Made by a program: the position numbers and the translations under genes
Assembly (NCBI GenBank): GCA_021324945.1
Contig: JAJPID010000014.1
Coordinates: 1-64,000 of the forward strand
DNA: 64,000 bases
Direction of reading: 5' to 3'
From: Lysobacterales bacterium
Lineage (GTDB): Bacteria > Pseudomonadota > Gammaproteobacteria > Xanthomonadales > Rhodanobacteraceae
Notes under the pieces: generated by a model
Databases searched by the model: none
Told to the model about the DNA's origin: nothing
What the model saw: the letters and a program-made list of their open reading frames with translations, nothing else
Part shown: one piece after another, positions 6,290 through 40,798 of the stretch
Layout: every line of letters begins with the position of its first letter
How positions within the stretch are numbered: the first letter of the stretch is position 1

Positions 6290-7735
6290 TCAGAGGGTTC
6301 GCGATGTCTTCGCCAGCGCACTCCTGCGGATGCCGTAGCCGAAGTAGACAACCAAGCCGATGGCCATCCAGATCACGAAGCGCACCCAGGTTATGACTGG
6401 CAGACCCCAGATCAGCGCCAGCGAGAACAGGATGCCGAGCGGCGAGACGATCCACAGCGCGGGTGTGCGGAAATTGCGCCGCAAATCGGGGCGCCGCCGG
6501 CGCAGCACCAGCACCGACGCGCAGATGATGATGAAGGCCGAGAGCGTGCCGATGTTGATCAGCTCGGCCACTTGCGTGATCGGCAACAGGCCAGCGACCA
6601 GCGCGGTGAATGCGCCGGCGATCAGGGTCGGCCGGTAGGGCGTGCCGAAGCGTGGATGCACTTTCGCAAACCAACCGGGCAGCAGCCCGTCGCGTGCCAG
6701 CGCGAACCAGATGCGCGCAGCGGCGAGCATGAAGGCGAAGAGCACCGACAACACGCCGACCACCACGACCGCGGCGACCGCCACGCCGATCCAGCCGAAA
6801 CCGCGTGCCGCGAACGCATCCGACACCGGCGCCGCACCGCCCAATTGCGCGTACGGCACCATGCCGGTGAGCACGAATGAAATCACGATGTACAACGTCA
6901 TCGAGATGGCCAGCGAGGCGATCACCGCGCGCGGCAGGTCGCGTTGCGGATTGCGAGCTTCCTCGGCGGCGGTGGTCAGCGTGTCGTAGCCGAAGCAGGC
7001 GAAGAACACCACACTGGCGGCGGTCAGCACGCCGGCCCAGCCGAAGTGCAGCGCGCCGTCGGCGCCCGGCGCGCGCGGCGGCACGAACGGATGCCAGTTG
7101 ACCGGATCGATCAGGAACACGCCGATGCCGATCACCAGCAGCGCGCCGATCACCTTGATCGTGACGATCGCGGTGTTGAAGCGCGCGCCCCATTCGGTGC
7201 GCACCGTCAGCAGGCCCGCGACGACGAGCGTGACCGCGGCGGCGATCACGTTGAACACGTGGCCTTCGCCGGTGCCCAGCGCGCCTTGCGCCCACGCCGG
7301 CAGATGGATGCCCGCGGAAGACAACAGCACCTGCACATAGCCCGACCAGCCGATCGCCACCACCGCGACCACCAGCGCGTATTCCAGCAGCAGATCCCAG
7401 CCGATGATCCACGCCGCCAGTTCGCCCAGCACCGCATAGCCGTAGGTGTAGGCGCTGCCGGTCACGGGAATCATGCCGGCGAATTCGGCATAGCAGAGTG
7501 CCGCGCATGCGCTGCCGATTCCGGCGATCAGGAATGACAACGCCACCGCCGGCCCGGCGTTGGCCGCGGCCTGCTGGCCAGCCAGCACGAAAATGCCGAC
7601 GCCGATGATGCCGCCGATGCCGATCGCTGTGAGCTGCCACACCCCCAGAACGCGGCGGAAATCGCGGCGTTCGTCGGTTTCGGCCTGCAACACCTCGACC
7701 GATTTGTGCCGCGTCAATTGCGCGAACAGGCTCAT
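6290..7735 (-). CDS. APC-family amino acid permease (YfnA/CAT-like)
   Basis: Inner-membrane amino acid transporter of 481 residues with about 12 hydrophobic helices. Family marks are the unwound helix-1 motif GIGGIIGVGIFVLAG, the FFACFGYDTLTTAAEEARNP segment of helix 6 and the conserved NPQRDLPRAVIAS loop, typical of the cationic amino acid transporter branch (YfnA and relatives). The start MSLFAQLTRHKSVE was chosen because of the GAGAGGAAC ribosome site; an in-frame extension upstream is not needed. Substrate cannot be read from the sequence. The upstream region is shared with the divergent cpdB-like gene. Confidence 0.92.
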   Translation of the reverse strand: MSLFAQLTRHKSVEVLQAETDERRDFRRVLGVWQLTAIGIGGIIGVGIFVLAGQQAAANAGPAVALSFLIAGIGSACAALCYAEFAGMIPVTGSAYTYGYAVLGELAAWIIGWDLLLEYALVVAVVAIGWSGYVQVLLSSAGIHLPAWAQGALGTGEGHVFNVIAAAVTLVVAGLLTVRTEWGARFNTAIVTIKVIGALLVIGIGVFLIDPVNWHPFVPPRAPGADGALHFGWAGVLTAASVVFFACFGYDTLTTAAEEARNPQRDLPRAVIASLAISMTLYIVISFVLTGMVPYAQLGGAAPVSDAFAARGFGWIGVAVAAVVVVGVLSVLFAFMLAAARIWFALARDGLLPGWFAKVHPRFGTPYRPTLIAGAFTALVAGLLPITQVAELINIGTLSAFIIICASVLVLRRRRPDLRRNFRTPALWIVSPLGILFSLALIWGLPVITWVRFVIWMAIGLVVYFGYGIRRSALAKTSRTL

Positions 7736-27584: not shown

Positions 27585-28790
27585 ATGCAACGCAAGATGC
27601 TCGCCACGGCGATCCTGCTCGCCGCGGCTTTCACCAGCCCTGGCGCGCTTGCCGCCAAAACGCAAACGGACAGCGAAGCCGCCGAGATCGCGCAGCTGAA
27701 GGCACAGCTTGCGGCGATGCAGGCGAAGATCGACGAGCTCGAGCAGCGCACGGATGCGCAGTCGCAGATCAACGTCAACACCCAGCAGAACATCGAGGCG
27801 ATGCAGCAGCAACAGCAGAAGCCCGAATCCTCGCTCGCCTCGGAATGGGCGGCCAGCACCAAGATCAGCGGCACGTCCTTCATCGATTTCACCAATATCG
27901 ACCAGACCAGCAACGGCAAGAAGACCGCAGCCAGCGGCACCGGGCTCGATGTCAAACGCTTCTATCTGCAGGTCGACCACAAGTTCAACGACATCTGGTC
28001 GGCCGATCTCACCACGGACTTCAACTACGTCAGCAACGACGGCGAGACGCAGTTGTTCGTGAAGAAGGCCTATCTGCAGGGGGCGTTCTCGCCCTTGGCC
28101 ACGCTGCGCGTGGGTTCGGCCAACACGCCGTGGATTCCCTTCGTCGAGGACCTGTACGGCTACCGTTTCGTCGAGAACACGCTGATCGATCGCCTGAAGT
28201 TCGGCAACTCCGCCGACTGGGGCCTGCACCTGCTGGGTGACAACGGCCTGTTCAATTACCAAGCCTCCATTCTCAACGGCGGCGGCTACAAGAACCCGAC
28301 CCGCAGCAACAGCGTCGATTTCGAAGGCCGCGTCGGTGTGCAGCCGGTCAAGGGCCTGATGCTCGCGGTCGGCGGCTACACCGGCGATCTGGGCAAGGAC
28401 ACCACCACCACGCCGGCCTTGCACGACGCACACCGCTACGACGCGCTCATCGCCTACACGAACGATTCCCTGCGCGTCGGCGCCGAATGGTTCCGCGCCA
28501 ACAACTGGAACAACGTCACCACGCCCGCGACCGACTCGGCCGATGGCTGGTCGCTGTGGGGCAGCTACAACTGGGGTGCGGCCGCGCTCTTCGCCCGTTA
28601 CGACCGCGCCAACACCAGCAAGGATCTCGATCCTTCACTGAAAGACACCTATTACAACCTCGGCGTATCGTTCCCGCTGACTAAGGGCGTGCGCCTGGCG
28701 ATCGCCTACAAGAACGAACAGTTGAAGGACGACAGCAAGATCGACACCAAGACCCGCGAGATCGGCGCGTGGAGCGAAGTGAAGTTCTGA
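27585..28790 (+). CDS. phosphate-selective type porin (OprP/OprO-like)
   Basis: Outer-membrane protein of 401 residues: signal peptide (about 1-23), a coiled-coil segment (about 29-75, rich in Glu/Gln/Ala: IAQLKAQLAAMQAKIDELEQ), then alternating strands of a beta-barrel ending in the aromatic EVKF typical of outer-membrane proteins. The barrel segments DVKRFYLQVDHKFND and LRVGSANTPWIPF recall OprP/OprO porins. A good GAGGGAG site precedes the ATG. Beside pstS and the candidate Pho box, it probably lets phosphate or polyphosphate through the outer membrane under starvation; selectivity is inferred from context. Confidence 0.88.
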   Translation: MQRKMLATAILLAAAFTSPGALAAKTQTDSEAAEIAQLKAQLAAMQAKIDELEQRTDAQSQINVNTQQNIEAMQQQQQKPESSLASEWAASTKISGTSFIDFTNIDQTSNGKKTAASGTGLDVKRFYLQVDHKFNDIWSADLTTDFNYVSNDGETQLFVKKAYLQGAFSPLATLRVGSANTPWIPFVEDLYGYRFVENTLIDRLKFGNSADWGLHLLGDNGLFNYQASILNGGGYKNPTRSNSVDFEGRVGVQPVKGLMLAVGGYTGDLGKDTTTTPALHDAHRYDALIAYTNDSLRVGAEWFRANNWNNVTTPATDSADGWSLWGSYNWGAAALFARYDRANTSKDLDPSLKDTYYNLGVSFPLTKGVRLAIAYKNEQLKDDSKIDTKTREIGAWSEVKF

Positions 28791-37367: not shown

Positions 37368-39020
37368 TTACTCGCGTCTTTCAATGCGCGCAGGCAGCAG
37401 CTCGAACGGTCGCATCATCTCGTTGTCTTCGTGTTCCAGCAGATGGCAATGCCAGACATAGCGGCCTGGTTCGCCATCGAACTTCGCGATGATGCGCGTG
37501 ACCATGCCCGGATCCGCGCCCACCGTGTCCTTCCAGCCCACTTCGTGCGGCGCAGGCGGTTGCGCCGGATCGGTGTAGCGCAGCGTGCGATGCGCATTCC
37601 ATGCGAACAAATCAAAAGCGCGCCGCTCGAGGATCTGGAAGCGCACCAGATGCAGATGGATAGGATGCGCGTCCCCGGTGGCGTTGACGAAGCTCCAGAT
37701 TTCGATATCGCCCTGATGCGGCCTTTCTGAAATCGGATCGCTCCAACGCTTGCCGTCGAGCAACATCACAGTCGCATTGCCGCCGGAATCGTCCATCTCG
37801 CCCAGCGCCAGCACGCGTTCGCGCACTGCGCGGCTTGCATCCAGACGCGGCGCCGGCCGCAGCGCACGCGGAATCACTGAAGCAGCCGTAGATGCGGCGC
37901 GATGCGCGACGCGGAATTCCAGTATTTCGCTGTCCTGATGCCGCAGGTGTACGGCGCTCCCTGCGAGTTCGCCGAAATCGACCAACACGTCCGCGCGTTC
38001 GGCCGGATACAACTCGATGCGCTCCCGTTGCACCGGCGCGGGCAGCAAGCCTTGATCGCTACCGATCTGATGGAACGCCAATCCGTGCGACAGCGACAGT
38101 TCGAATAAGCTGCTATTGGCGACGTTTGTGAGCCGCAGGCGATAGATGCGCGGCTCGACTTGCAGATACGGAAAGAGCTTGCCGTTGCACAGGACCAGAT
38201 TGCCCTGGCACTGCATCACCCATGGCGCATCCGGATCGGTGGAGACCGGATAGTAAAGTTCGCCGTTGCGCGCGATCAGGCGATCGCACAACAGCAACGG
38301 CAGCTCGTATTCGCCCGCCGGCAATCCGAGCGCCTGCTCCTGCGGGTCCCGCACCCACCACGCGCCGTAAAGGCCGGCATAGATGTTCAGGCGCGTGATC
38401 CCCATCGCGTGGTCGTGATACCACAACGTCGCTGCGTCCTGACCGTTGGGGTATCCGTACAACGCCGACTTGCCGGGCACGTACCAATCTTCCGGCCAGC
38501 CGTCGCTGTGCGGCGGTACGCGCGCGCCGTGCACGTGCGTCACCGCGCGCACATCCGGCTTGTCGCGTTCGGCGCCGTGCAGCCCATGATCGATCGGCAG
38601 GAAATGCCGCTGCGGCAGCGCATTGACCCATTCGACCAAGACGGGTTCATCGCCTTGCACCTCGATGGTCGGACCGGGCGAACTGCCCTCGTATCCCCAC
38701 ATCGGCGTGGGCGGCAGATCGCGATGCAGACGCGCATTAAACGCGCGCATCGTCACGCGGTGGCACGGCAATTGCCGGCCGGGCCACGCGGGATGCATGC
38801 GCAAACCTGTCGCGCGTGCTCGCGGCGGAATCGGCAGCGGATCGACGAACCGCGCCAGCGACATCGGGTTGACCAGCGGCACTTTCGGCGACGCAAGCGT
38901 TGCTGCGCGGCGCATCGGCATATCCGACATCGCGGTTGAAGCCGCCACAGCGCGCCGCGTCGCGACCGCGCCGAACGCAATCCCTGCGCCAAGCAGGAAT
39001 TGGCGCCGCGTGCAGCTCAT
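37368..39020 (-). CDS. Tat-exported multicopper oxidase (CotA/bilirubin-oxidase type)
   Basis: Laccase-like enzyme of 550 residues. The twin-arginine signal is MSCTRRQFLLGAGIAFGAVA. All four copper motifs are present: THVHGARVPPHSDG, LWYHDHAMGI, DAHPIHLHLVRF and WHCHLLEHEDNEMM with the T1 Cys and axial Met. The layout (three cupredoxin domains, CotA-like MWGYEGSSPGPTIEV) suggests oxidation of phenols, bilirubin-like compounds or metal ions coupled to O2 reduction. The start was chosen to give the Tat signal. The gene stands alone, downstream of the multi-hairpin element. Confidence 0.93.
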   Translation of the reverse strand: MSCTRRQFLLGAGIAFGAVATRRAVAASTAMSDMPMRRAATLASPKVPLVNPMSLARFVDPLPIPPRARATGLRMHPAWPGRQLPCHRVTMRAFNARLHRDLPPTPMWGYEGSSPGPTIEVQGDEPVLVEWVNALPQRHFLPIDHGLHGAERDKPDVRAVTHVHGARVPPHSDGWPEDWYVPGKSALYGYPNGQDAATLWYHDHAMGITRLNIYAGLYGAWWVRDPQEQALGLPAGEYELPLLLCDRLIARNGELYYPVSTDPDAPWVMQCQGNLVLCNGKLFPYLQVEPRIYRLRLTNVANSSLFELSLSHGLAFHQIGSDQGLLPAPVQRERIELYPAERADVLVDFGELAGSAVHLRHQDSEILEFRVAHRAASTAASVIPRALRPAPRLDASRAVRERVLALGEMDDSGGNATVMLLDGKRWSDPISERPHQGDIEIWSFVNATGDAHPIHLHLVRFQILERRAFDLFAWNAHRTLRYTDPAQPPAPHEVGWKDTVGADPGMVTRIIAKFDGEPGRYVWHCHLLEHEDNEMMRPFELLPARIERRE

Positions 39021-39145
39021 CGCCACGCCTCGCGAGCGCGGTCGCCGAACGTCTTGTTGAATGGCTGGGTGGCCGGGCACTCGAAAATCACGCCGACAGC
39101 ATCGGCGCACAACATGACGGCTGCGTGTCAGCGCCCGCGGGGCTT

Positions 39146-39306
39146 GGAAACTCTGATTGATCAGAGTTTCCTTGCGCCACATGGATGTGGCGCACGCAAA
39201 TCAAGCGCGCTTCAGCTTCAGGTGCTTGATTTGCTGAGCCGTATTCGGGCGTGTACCGAATTCGATGCGCTCTGACAAATTCAGGAAGGATTTGTTCAGA
39301 GCTTCC
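39146..39306. repeat. 161-bp multi-hairpin element with terminal inverted repeats
   Basis: Five palindromes lie one after another: 39146-39171 (GGAAACTCTGA/TCAGAGTTTCC, loop TTGA), 39173-39194 (TGCGCCACAT/ATGTGGCGCA, loop GG), 39196-39234 (GCAAATCAAGC/GCTTGATTTGC, loop 17), 39243-39261 (ATTCGG/CCGAAT) and 39269-39302 (GCTCTGACAAAT with a one-base bulge). The outer ends, GGAAACTCTGA and TCAGAGCTTCC, are themselves inverted repeats matching 10 of 11. It ends exactly against the DUF2214 stop codon. It has no coding potential worth reporting. It may be a miniature mobile element, a REP-like cluster or a structured RNA. Confidence 0.75.
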
Positions 39307-39753
39307 TTAGATTCCCCGCGCCATCAACACGGCAAAAATCGGGATGACTGCCAGGCCGCACATCTCCATCATCACCAGCGCGCGCATCCAGCGCCATTCG
39401 CGCGGAGGAATTTCGTATGCCGCATCGTCGCGCCGGTAACGCCGCCAGCGTTGATAGCTCATCGTCGGTAGGATCGAAATCAGACCGATCAGCACGAACA
39501 AGCCGATCAGCGCGTGGAAAGACGTGTTATGCGTGTAAAACGCCAGTGGCTTGGCGCCGAGGAACAGCCGGCCCAATCCGGTCAGCAGCACCGCGCCGGC
39601 GCTGATGAAATAACCCATGTCCGCGCGCGCCAGCGTTTCCACATCCACTGCCACGTGTCCAGCACCCAGCAGCAGCCACTGCCGGCCGAGAAACCACGCC
39701 AGGAAAAAGATCGAAAGAAAATGCGCGTAGGACAGTGCCGCATCGCCGTACAT
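39307..39753 (-). CDS. DUF2214 family membrane protein
   Basis: Inner-membrane protein of 148 residues with four helices. The N terminus MYGDAALSYAHFLSIFFLAW and the ADMGYFISAGAVLLTGLGRL segment fit DUF2214. The ATG overlaps the stop of the dehydratase gene (TGATG), so both are translated from one message. Histidines in helix 1 and in the YTHNTSFHALIGLFV segment could hold haem or metal, but this is untested. Function unknown. Confidence 0.82.
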   Translation of the reverse strand: MYGDAALSYAHFLSIFFLAWFLGRQWLLLGAGHVAVDVETLARADMGYFISAGAVLLTGLGRLFLGAKPLAFYTHNTSFHALIGLFVLIGLISILPTMSYQRWRRYRRDDAAYEIPPREWRWMRALVMMEMCGLAVIPIFAVLMARGI

Positions 39754-40730
39754 CAGGAAGACTCCGTTGCCTGTTTCAAAAACGACAATGCATCCAGATC
39801 CACATTGCCGCCGCTCAAGATGATTCCAATCTTCTTGCCGCGCCAACGCTCGCGCTGCGCCAATAGAACCGCCAGCGCCACAGCCGAAGAAGGTTCCACC
39901 GTCTGTTTCAGGTGCTTCCACAGCAGACACATCGCCGCGAGAACTTGTGCATCGTCCGCCGTTGCAATCTCGACACCGCGTGCGCGCAACAATTCGAAAT
40001 TGATCTCGCCGATCGTCGCGCGCAGTCCGTCGCAGATCGTGTTCGGCACGACATCGACGACGCGCTCGCCGCGTTGCATCGAACGCCAACCATCGTCTGC
40101 GCCGGTCGGCTCCGCCGCCAGCAATTGCGTCGAAGGCGACAGCGCGCGCGCTACGATCGCGGCGCCGGACATCAACCCGCCGCCACCCAGCGGCGCGATC
40201 AGCACGTCCACTTCCGGCGCTTGCCGCAGCAATTCCAGCACAACGGTGCCTTGACCTGCGATCACGCGCGGATCGGTGTAGGGATGCACCATCGTCGCGC
40301 CGGTTTCGCGCGCGACTCGCGCTGCGGTCTCCTCGCGTGCGGCGAGGGTCGGTGCGCACACGTGCAGAATCGCGCCCGCCGCTTCGATGTTGGCGAGCTT
40401 GGCGCGCACCGCGCCCTCGGGCACCACCACGTGCGCGGGGATGCCGCGGCTGCGCGCGGCCAGCGCCAGCGCGGCACCGTGATTGCCGGAAGAATGCGTG
40501 ACCACGCCGCGCCGGGCTTCTTCCTCGTGCAACGACCACACCGCGTTGCAGGCGCCGCGGAACTTGAACGCACCGCCGATTTGCAGGTGTTCGCACTTGA
40601 AATGCAGCGACGCGCCGGCGAGTTCGTCCAGCGCTTGGTCTCGTAGCACCGGCGTGACACGCGCGAACGGCGCGATCCGCGCGGCGGCGGCGCGCACGTC
40701 GGTCAAAGTGGGGAATTCGAACCGGCTCAT
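39753..40730 (-). CDS. threonine/serine dehydratase (PLP-dependent)
   Basis: Fold-type II PLP enzyme of 325 residues that deaminates threonine or serine to an oxo acid, or racemises serine. Schiff-base Lys56 lies in GGAFKFRGACNA, the substrate loop is THSSGNHGAALALAA and the phosphate cradle is PLGGGGLMSG. There is no C-terminal ACT domain, so it is not the feedback-controlled IlvA; it resembles catabolic or racemase forms. Coupled to the DUF2214 gene and divergent from pepN across 80 bp. Confidence 0.9.
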   Translation of the reverse strand: MSRFEFPTLTDVRAAAARIAPFARVTPVLRDQALDELAGASLHFKCEHLQIGGAFKFRGACNAVWSLHEEEARRGVVTHSSGNHGAALALAARSRGIPAHVVVPEGAVRAKLANIEAAGAILHVCAPTLAAREETAARVARETGATMVHPYTDPRVIAGQGTVVLELLRQAPEVDVLIAPLGGGGLMSGAAIVARALSPSTQLLAAEPTGADDGWRSMQRGERVVDVVPNTICDGLRATIGEINFELLRARGVEIATADDAQVLAAMCLLWKHLKQTVEPSSAVALAVLLAQRERWRGKKIGIILSGGNVDLDALSFLKQATESS

Positions 40731-40798
40731 GCTTTCGCTGCGCAACATACACACGCGCGCGCAAACACGCCAGAGCACGGTTCGCTGCCGCATCCCGT

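Follow-up and report, generated by a model that had tools for sequence, protein, structure and literature searches.

The window, the whole stretch of 64,000 nt that was analysed, contains at 39146-39306 an element of 161 bp located between a DUF2214 gene and a multicopper oxidase gene (Table 1). The sequence-only reading had described it as five consecutive hairpins in an order that was beyond chance and unlike a terminator. Reading of the letters and folding confirmed the five hairpins: the minimum free energy of 39130-39320 was -95.7 kcal/mol as compared with a mean of -61.7 kcal/mol for shuffled sequences (z -7.33), and none of 200 shuffles reached so low an energy. The ends, GGAAACTCTGA and TCAGAGCTTCC, match as inverted repeats in 10 of 11 positions, as had been claimed. 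The last hairpin pair indeed carries one bulge (the T at 39295), and the element does stop exactly at the DUF2214 stop codon (element end 39306, stop at 39307-39309). That we are looking at a chance array or a terminator cluster has next to no probability. The position between two genes would suit such a reading, but 0 of 200 shuffles fold as well, there are dozens of homologous copies, and terminator-like sites in 38900-39700 were at shuffle level (one found, 0.9 expected); both candidates were ruled out on these grounds. Instead of the single copy without relatives or covariation that had been named as the mark of a chance array, we found copies, relatives and paired changes.

Table 1. The five-hairpin element and its surroundings in the window
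Feature	Position	Strand	Description	Basis
Multicopper oxidase gene	37368-39020	-	on the other side of the element from DUF2214	
Left flank GCTT	39142-39145	.	place of a target duplication; unlike the right flank	
HP1	39146-39171	+	left terminal repeat, self-folded, GGAAACTCTGA/TCAGAGTTTCC; IS5-type end	letters and folding
HP2	39174-39193	+	GCGCCAC-ATGGAT-GTGGCGC; loop ANGGAN at 39181-39186, C-G closing pair; fits CsrA/RsmA hairpin consensus	
HP3	39196-39234	+	stem of at least 13 pairs, CAAATCAAGC.../...GCTTGATTTG	folding and paired changes
HP4	39238-39268	+	stem with 7-nt loop GCGTGTA	folding and paired changes
HP5	39269-39302	+	right terminal hairpin; loop AGGAA with GGA (AGGA 39283-39286); bulged T 39295	
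Right terminal repeat	39290-39306	-	GGAAGCTCTGAACAAAT reading outward; compare GGAAGGTCTGAACAAGTCC of an IS5-family element	
Right flank TTAG	39307-39310	.	YTAR target form; holds the DUF2214 stop (TAA on the minus strand)	
DUF2214 gene	39307-39753	-	PF09980	
PLP-dependent enzyme gene	39753-40793	-	upstream of DUF2214	

The + strand, which bears the GGA loops described below, is antisense to the DUF2214, multicopper oxidase and PLP-dependent enzyme genes. The suggestion that the element is simply the folded 3' end of the dehydratase-DUF2214 message fails because the strand with the loops runs opposite to the genes on either side. No sigma-70-like promoter was found in 38900-39700. The DUF2214 orthologue in a related genome (G015) has no element at its stop codon; the neighbouring gene differs there, so this is an absence only and not a clean empty site.

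The element belongs to a family. BLAST in its own 2.5-Mb genome (G000) gave 23 matches, some of which were pieces or reverse readings of one copy. Across 61 genomes, five matched: the own genome, G012 (25 matches), G015 (12), G014 and, weakly, G023. The BLASTN search proposed by the sequence-only reading thus returned many copies in the own genome and in relatives. Using a covariance model (R1) built from 27 copies (alignment A1), the E-values of which are rough, we found 47 places in the own genome at E ≤ 0.1; eight of these look like opposite-strand shadows, which leaves about 39. R1 matched all 16 genomes of the genus (two with weak best matches only), 117 of 197 genomes and 18 of 26 genera of the family (with stricter filters and no more than 14 candidates per genome scored) and, with no more than 10 candidates per genome scored, 40 of 274 genomes of the class, own included. 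The 234 class genomes without a match speak against an artefact of composition. Named hosts among the matches listed were Pseudomarimonas arenosa, Lysobacterales, Chromatiales and many Gammaproteobacteria MAGs, and P. arenosa CAU 1598 has many copies. There was no match in the plasmids searched with two elements (L134 and L171), in the Escherichia coli genomes searched with L134 or in the phages searched with the window element. Rfam gave no match in the window at gathering and five sub-threshold matches, none of them to a Csr/Rsm family. A search of titles or starts of abstracts in the open-licence PMC literature found no description of such an element, and six stretches of its sequence occurred in no text of the open-licence PMC literature searched.

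Two irregular arrangements were seen among the copies. In the own genome, one full copy has a second element, which has diverged, immediately downstream of it (L087 1678-1817, G000:C50, beside the copy at 27966-28126). At several JACQWY MAG loci (L145 at 7027-7182, L147, L158, L185, L187, L204 and L216), copies start in mid-loop of HP1 (TTCAGAGCTTCC...) with unrelated flanks on the HP1 side and a normal right end, owing either to repeated truncation at the tip of the hairpin or to the assembly.

To analyze mobility, we submitted 117 copies (72 of the 98 listed rows and 45 others) to a flank test; both ends were recognisable in 79. Identical 4-bp flanks were present in 45 of these 79 copies, as compared with a mean of 7.7 and a maximum of 18 in 2000 re-pairings. 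The duplicated 4-mers were mostly YTAR (CTAG, TTAA, CTAA and TTAG), and unusual duplications matched as well (TAAA, TTTA, ATAA, ATAG, CTTT, TCAA and CAAG). YTAR is the target of the IS5 group. Four IS5-type elements with similar ends were found, all with 4-bp duplications (CTAA, TTAA, TTAG and CTAA); among copies of one such element in G344 the duplication was present in four of five, and L279 has TTAG/CTAG. The sequence GGAAGGTCTGAACAAGTCC forms the end both of the IS5-family element L270 759-1937 and of Pseudomarimonas copies such as L171, with near forms in L267, L259 and L268. Two transposases tested match NF033581 (IS5 family). The DUF772 search also returned elements whose ends are different, for example L269. 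At L269 and other G480 loci there were 12 DUF772 matches of equal score with an open frame of 330 aa, and L269 has a related end (GGAAACGCTGAT).

These data identify the 161-bp feature as a MITE-like non-autonomous transposable element: it is multi-copy, moves as a unit and is flanked in other copies by a 4-bp YTAR duplication. The mobile element envisaged by the sequence-only reading is hence borne out by dispersed copies, terminal inverted repeats, duplications in other copies and IS5-family elements with similar ends. The element shares with IS5-group MITEs the terminal repeats GGAAG[GC]TCTGAACAAGTCC common to IS5-family elements, the 4-bp YTAR duplications, the many copies outside genes and the lack of room for a transposase. 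It differs in its interior, which is not a decayed IS but consists of ordered hairpins with two conserved loops, found class-wide and also under other terminal repeats.

HP1 of the window copy is of the same end type as in copies bearing 4-bp duplications. Its flanks are GCTT and TTAG and so lack an intact duplication, which was lost or never formed. The DUF772 (PF05598) transposase profile was found in 9 of 26 genomes tested, and this profile had no match in G000, G012 or G015. As no DUF772 partner was found in the own genome, the window copy is probably old and immobile at present. An autonomous element was sought in two ways. The right-end pattern gave nine matches in the own genome, all within known copies. 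In the search for end pairs 300-4000 bp apart (153 loci), the pairs in five loci were made up of known copies, judging by their coordinates, and the remaining pair (L245) consisted of two copies around a gene.

The sequence-only reading had also considered a REP/BIME-like cluster. Mobilisation of such repeats by a RAYT (Y1) transposase would account for short palindromic extragenic repeats in many copies, and a Y1_Tnp match was present in 7 of 16 genus genomes. However, Y1 (PF01797) was without a match in G000, G012 and G015, which hold most near copies, and this rules it out for the copy-rich genomes tested. Target duplications also argue against it. REP units, as described in a part of PMC3733652, are 20-40 bp long with a GTAG or CGTC tag, an anatomy different from that of the element. 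Our element resembles REP/BIME sequences as a multi-copy extragenic palindrome, but has terminal repeats, a 4-bp duplication and five different hairpins in fixed order. We regard RAYT mobilisation as very improbable.

Copies were mostly outside genes. A rough gene caller placed 8 of 200 entries (a few copies entered twice) inside called genes, and a cruder caller placed 44 of 200 there. Of 192 copies, 51 had the end of a called gene no more than 4 nt from one of their own ends, and 3 had a gene start there. Since YTAR contains TAA or TAG, insertion in a stop codon can restore the stop, and the window copy ends exactly so. Relative to tandem neighbours, 29 copies were sense and 43 antisense with the rough caller, which shortens genes and missed DUF2214 (P 0.12). 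The cruder caller gave 18 sense and 39 antisense (P 0.008), but its scoring favours antisense frames in GC-rich DNA, so the rough caller is the better one. A bias towards sense orientation to host genes, which would support a role in the mRNA, was seen with neither caller.

To compare the architecture across genomes, we folded 79 representatives, meant as one per genome, although seven come from named records, of which one is G012 and six may duplicate genomes already included under a G handle. They are mostly best-scoring copies under R1. The order HP1-HP5 is kept in them while the stems are rewritten, and most are 140-161 nt long. In A1, changes on both sides occurred at 20 of 59 pairs; there were 80 such cells as compared with 32 in shuffled data and at most 25 when partners were slid. 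One of 14 pairs in HP3 was changed on both sides in 12 of 27 copies, and HP4 had such changes at 4 of 11 pairs. Among named copies of 147-155 nt, 54 of 55 fold with five loops, mostly near positions 10, 35, 60, 93 and 127. Shortened forms, read by eye, retain whole hairpins (HP1+HP4+HP5 in L034, HP1+HP5 in L036). The compensatory changes that the sequence-only reading had proposed to look for are thus present in the 27 copies of A1, where the stems change in pairs with the five-hairpin order kept.

On the + strand of 75 representatives we counted 88 G.T and 24 A.C (88 and 27 if the fold of the other strand is used to place the loops), although these representatives were mostly picked by a model score that leans towards G.T. 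By genome, 47 had more G.T, 6 had more A.C and 22 were tied (sign test 6e-9). In the named copies, which are not independent, the numbers were 66 and 10 (54 of 55 copies). In older genus copies they were 68 and 76, or 21 and 20 (22 of 27 copies). The earlier idea of a folded RNA is supported as far as structure is concerned (covariation, fixed loops, and G.T over A.C on one strand across genomes), but older genus copies do not show the strand bias. Our own reading is that the + strand is selected while the element spreads and that copies then decay neutrally.

In several representatives, HP2-HP4 are the same, as is the GGA loop of HP5, but the terminal hairpins differ: TAGCAGGCTGTTGAAAAAG, GAGGGTGTCGCAAAA (L327), CGGCAAGCTGTCGA (L297, L301) and others. 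We refer to TARCAGGNTGTTGAAAAA as type-B ends. The TAGCAGGCTGTTGAAAAAG-type end alone was sought in 11 genomes and occurred at 211 + 215 sites in G286 (reversed control, 0) and at 8 + 8 in G012. Five-hairpin type-B elements are 168 bp in G286 and about 156 bp in G012, and there are longer forms too. A transposase for the type-B ends was not found among the open frames of four of the listed stretches, inspected by eye. The same core under unrelated terminal repeats shows that the core is the conserved part and that the ends are exchangeable.

G286, a class member of 3.1 Mb (L348-L357, L364, L365), has 426 matches to the 18-bp end, or by count about 200 type-B copies, some arranged head-to-tail. 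L041 and L050 (G012) share the left flank, which is followed by a type-A copy and immediately by an enlarged type-B copy. Within the window's own genus, the first hairpin of L055 (G014; GCCCGCCGAAACGGCGGGC) and of L105 (G000; TCCGGCCGGACCGGA) is unrelated in sequence to the common one.

We then determined which loops are conserved. Exactly five loops were obtained for 75 of the 79 representatives. GGA was present in the loop region of HP2 in 72 of these 75 genomes and of HP5 in 72, as compared with 2 for HP1, 2 for HP3 and 16 for HP4; the ANGGA form occurred in HP2 in 68 and in HP5 in 9. The HP2 loop follows the pattern C(ANGGAN)G, where N is any base. A search for the HP2 stem that was blind to the loop found 69 stems (10 of 79 were not found), 63 of them with ANGGA, among 20 different stem arms. 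The N of ANGGA in the 63 stems was G in 27, T in 23, C in 8 and A in 5. When ANGGA was located by position in the 79 representatives, 66 motifs were obtained, all closed by C-G; the whole motif occurred in 1% of shuffles. Because the loops are part of R1, the copies that it finds are biased in favour of them. Two controls address this. Among 27 genus copies found by similarity rather than by R1, ANGGA was present in 19 of the 22 stems found; in 13 type-B copies of G286 found by their end, HP2 had ANGGA in 10 and HP5 had GGA in all 13. Across 23 rows of the own genome, which cover 22 loci because one of these has a second copy in tandem, the stems were 74% identical on average, and identity at GGA was 100/87/91% in HP2 and 100/95/95% in HP5. 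The window copy keeps both GGA loops. Thus, the five-hairpin order and two loops are kept while the stems are rewritten by paired changes.

Some copies are enlarged. We folded nine kinds (11 sequences), six of which add GGA-loop hairpins. These are added on the + strand of the element in four kinds (G012 type B, JAMCTV, JAENIZ L180 and Pseudomarimonas); JAMCTV and JAENIZ L180 have a module in common and are not independent, and the Pseudomarimonas copy has only the GGA triloop, without the A. In G286, the added GGA hairpins run in either direction (on the strand of the element in L355, but inverted in L364), and in the enlarged type-A copy of G012 they are on the - strand. The three kinds adding no GGA hairpin are G015 L062, JAENIZ L162 and JAQBXX. 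HP4 of L046-L050 (G012) and of L029 and L033 (G000) holds an insert of about 79 bp, a module whose hairpins have GGA loops on the opposite strand (GTACAAGGATGTAC).

The conserved loops resemble binding sites of CsrA/RsmA. In the portions of PMC7652899 relied on here, the SELEX consensus for CsrA is RUACARGGAUGU, RsmE hairpins have an ANGGAN hexaloop and the loops of CsrB repeats present CAGGA(U/A/C)G. The published consensus is matched by HP2, with CACAGGGATGTG and its variants, and by HP5, with CCAGGATGG. RNAs that sequester CsrA have several GGA motifs in hairpin loops, and the element has them in HP2 and HP5, each in 72 of 75 genomes. A csrA gene (PF02599) was matched in 42 of 44 element-positive genomes, including the own genome (one match), and in 16 of 20 element-negative ones, which were the named genomes among the 234 class genomes without a match (P 0.07). 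The two element-positive genomes without a csrA match, G342 and G456, are of one genus and have one weaker element match each. The RNA-binding residues Leu4 and Arg44 are kept in all seven host CsrA proteins read.

Like CsrB, CsrC, RsmY and RsmZ, the element has hairpin loops with ANGGA or CAGGA(U/A/C)G, and some longer copies carry three to five of them. In contrast to these RNAs, its basic unit has only two sites, is dispersed and mobile, lacks an Rfam match and is predicted to be transcribed and to bind CsrA. A second precedent is RsmU, described in part of PMC7694677 as an RsmA-binding RNA cut from an mRNA 3' region in Xanthomonas, where the authors found no CsrB/RsmZ homologue. RsmU resembles the element, whose binding is predicted, in being an RsmA-binding RNA at a gene's 3' end in a Gammaproteobacterium; it differs in coming from one mRNA and in being confined to Xanthomonas, and a GGA mutant of RsmU still bound RsmA (same part of PMC7694677).

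A rival explanation is a plain IS5-derived MITE. Its palindromes would be by-products (of replication slippage and template switching, which perfect the arms), and its loops would be inherited without function or any role as RNA. Terminal repeats, 4-bp YTAR duplications and IS5-family partners are as expected of such an element, as are the near equality of G.T and A.C in old genus copies and the scarcity of copies within called genes (8 of 200). Prokaryotic MITEs also yield transcripts with stable stem-loops, according to a passage of a review (PMC10969869). This explanation nevertheless leaves four observations unaccounted for: the five-hairpin order kept across the class, the retention of GGA in two of the five loops although the adjacent N takes all four bases, the same core under unrelated terminal repeats, and the GGA-loop hairpins found once more in the additional modules of six of the nine kinds of longer copy. 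We consider it unlikely.

Alternatively, the selected fold may be that of single-stranded DNA, with hairpins recognised in transposition or replication by a transposase or a host factor. Stems that are almost free of mismatches and contain few wobbles (88 G.T in 4288 pairs) fit DNA hairpins, both ends are terminal-repeat hairpins, and hairpins are lost as wholes (L034, L036). However, 4-bp duplications together with IS5-family partners point to double-stranded transposition, and the form of HP2-HP4 is kept under different ends. Moreover, stable GNA/GNNA DNA loops do not call for a free N like that of ANGGA. This makes a DNA fold a rather improbable target of selection.

The explanation that we favor, with a probability of about 0.6, is an IS-mobilised MITE, mobile and structured, with a hairpin array as its cargo that we infer to be transcribed and bound as RNA by CsrA/RsmA. 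The conserved cargo would be RNA read from the + strand with two predicted CsrA/RsmA sites, ANGGA in HP2 and GGA in HP5. Insertion would put this putative CsrA-binding module in or against the host transcript; about one copy in four sits directly at a stop codon. Alternatively, dozens of copies may in sum titrate CsrA, as CsrB/RsmZ RNAs do. A broader view, which we hold tentatively at somewhat less than even odds, is a class-wide transposable CsrA/RsmA-binding hairpin array that swaps its ends between lineages, grows by gaining more CsrA hairpins and either brings host transcripts under new CsrA control through insertion at stop codons or acts as a dispersed CsrA sponge, possibly where CsrB/RsmZ are absent.

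Interiors of MITEs are normally expendable. A MITE that maintains its interior throughout a bacterial class, and swaps one type of terminal repeat for another at its ends, is therefore unusual whether or not CsrA is involved. If CsrA binding is real, the conserved cargo of a transposon is the signal that a global regulator recognises, and post-transcriptional networks could be rewired or buffered directly by this route. It would also be one way in which bacteria without known CsrB/RsmZ, as reported for Xanthomonas in the part of PMC7694677 cited above, could control CsrA.
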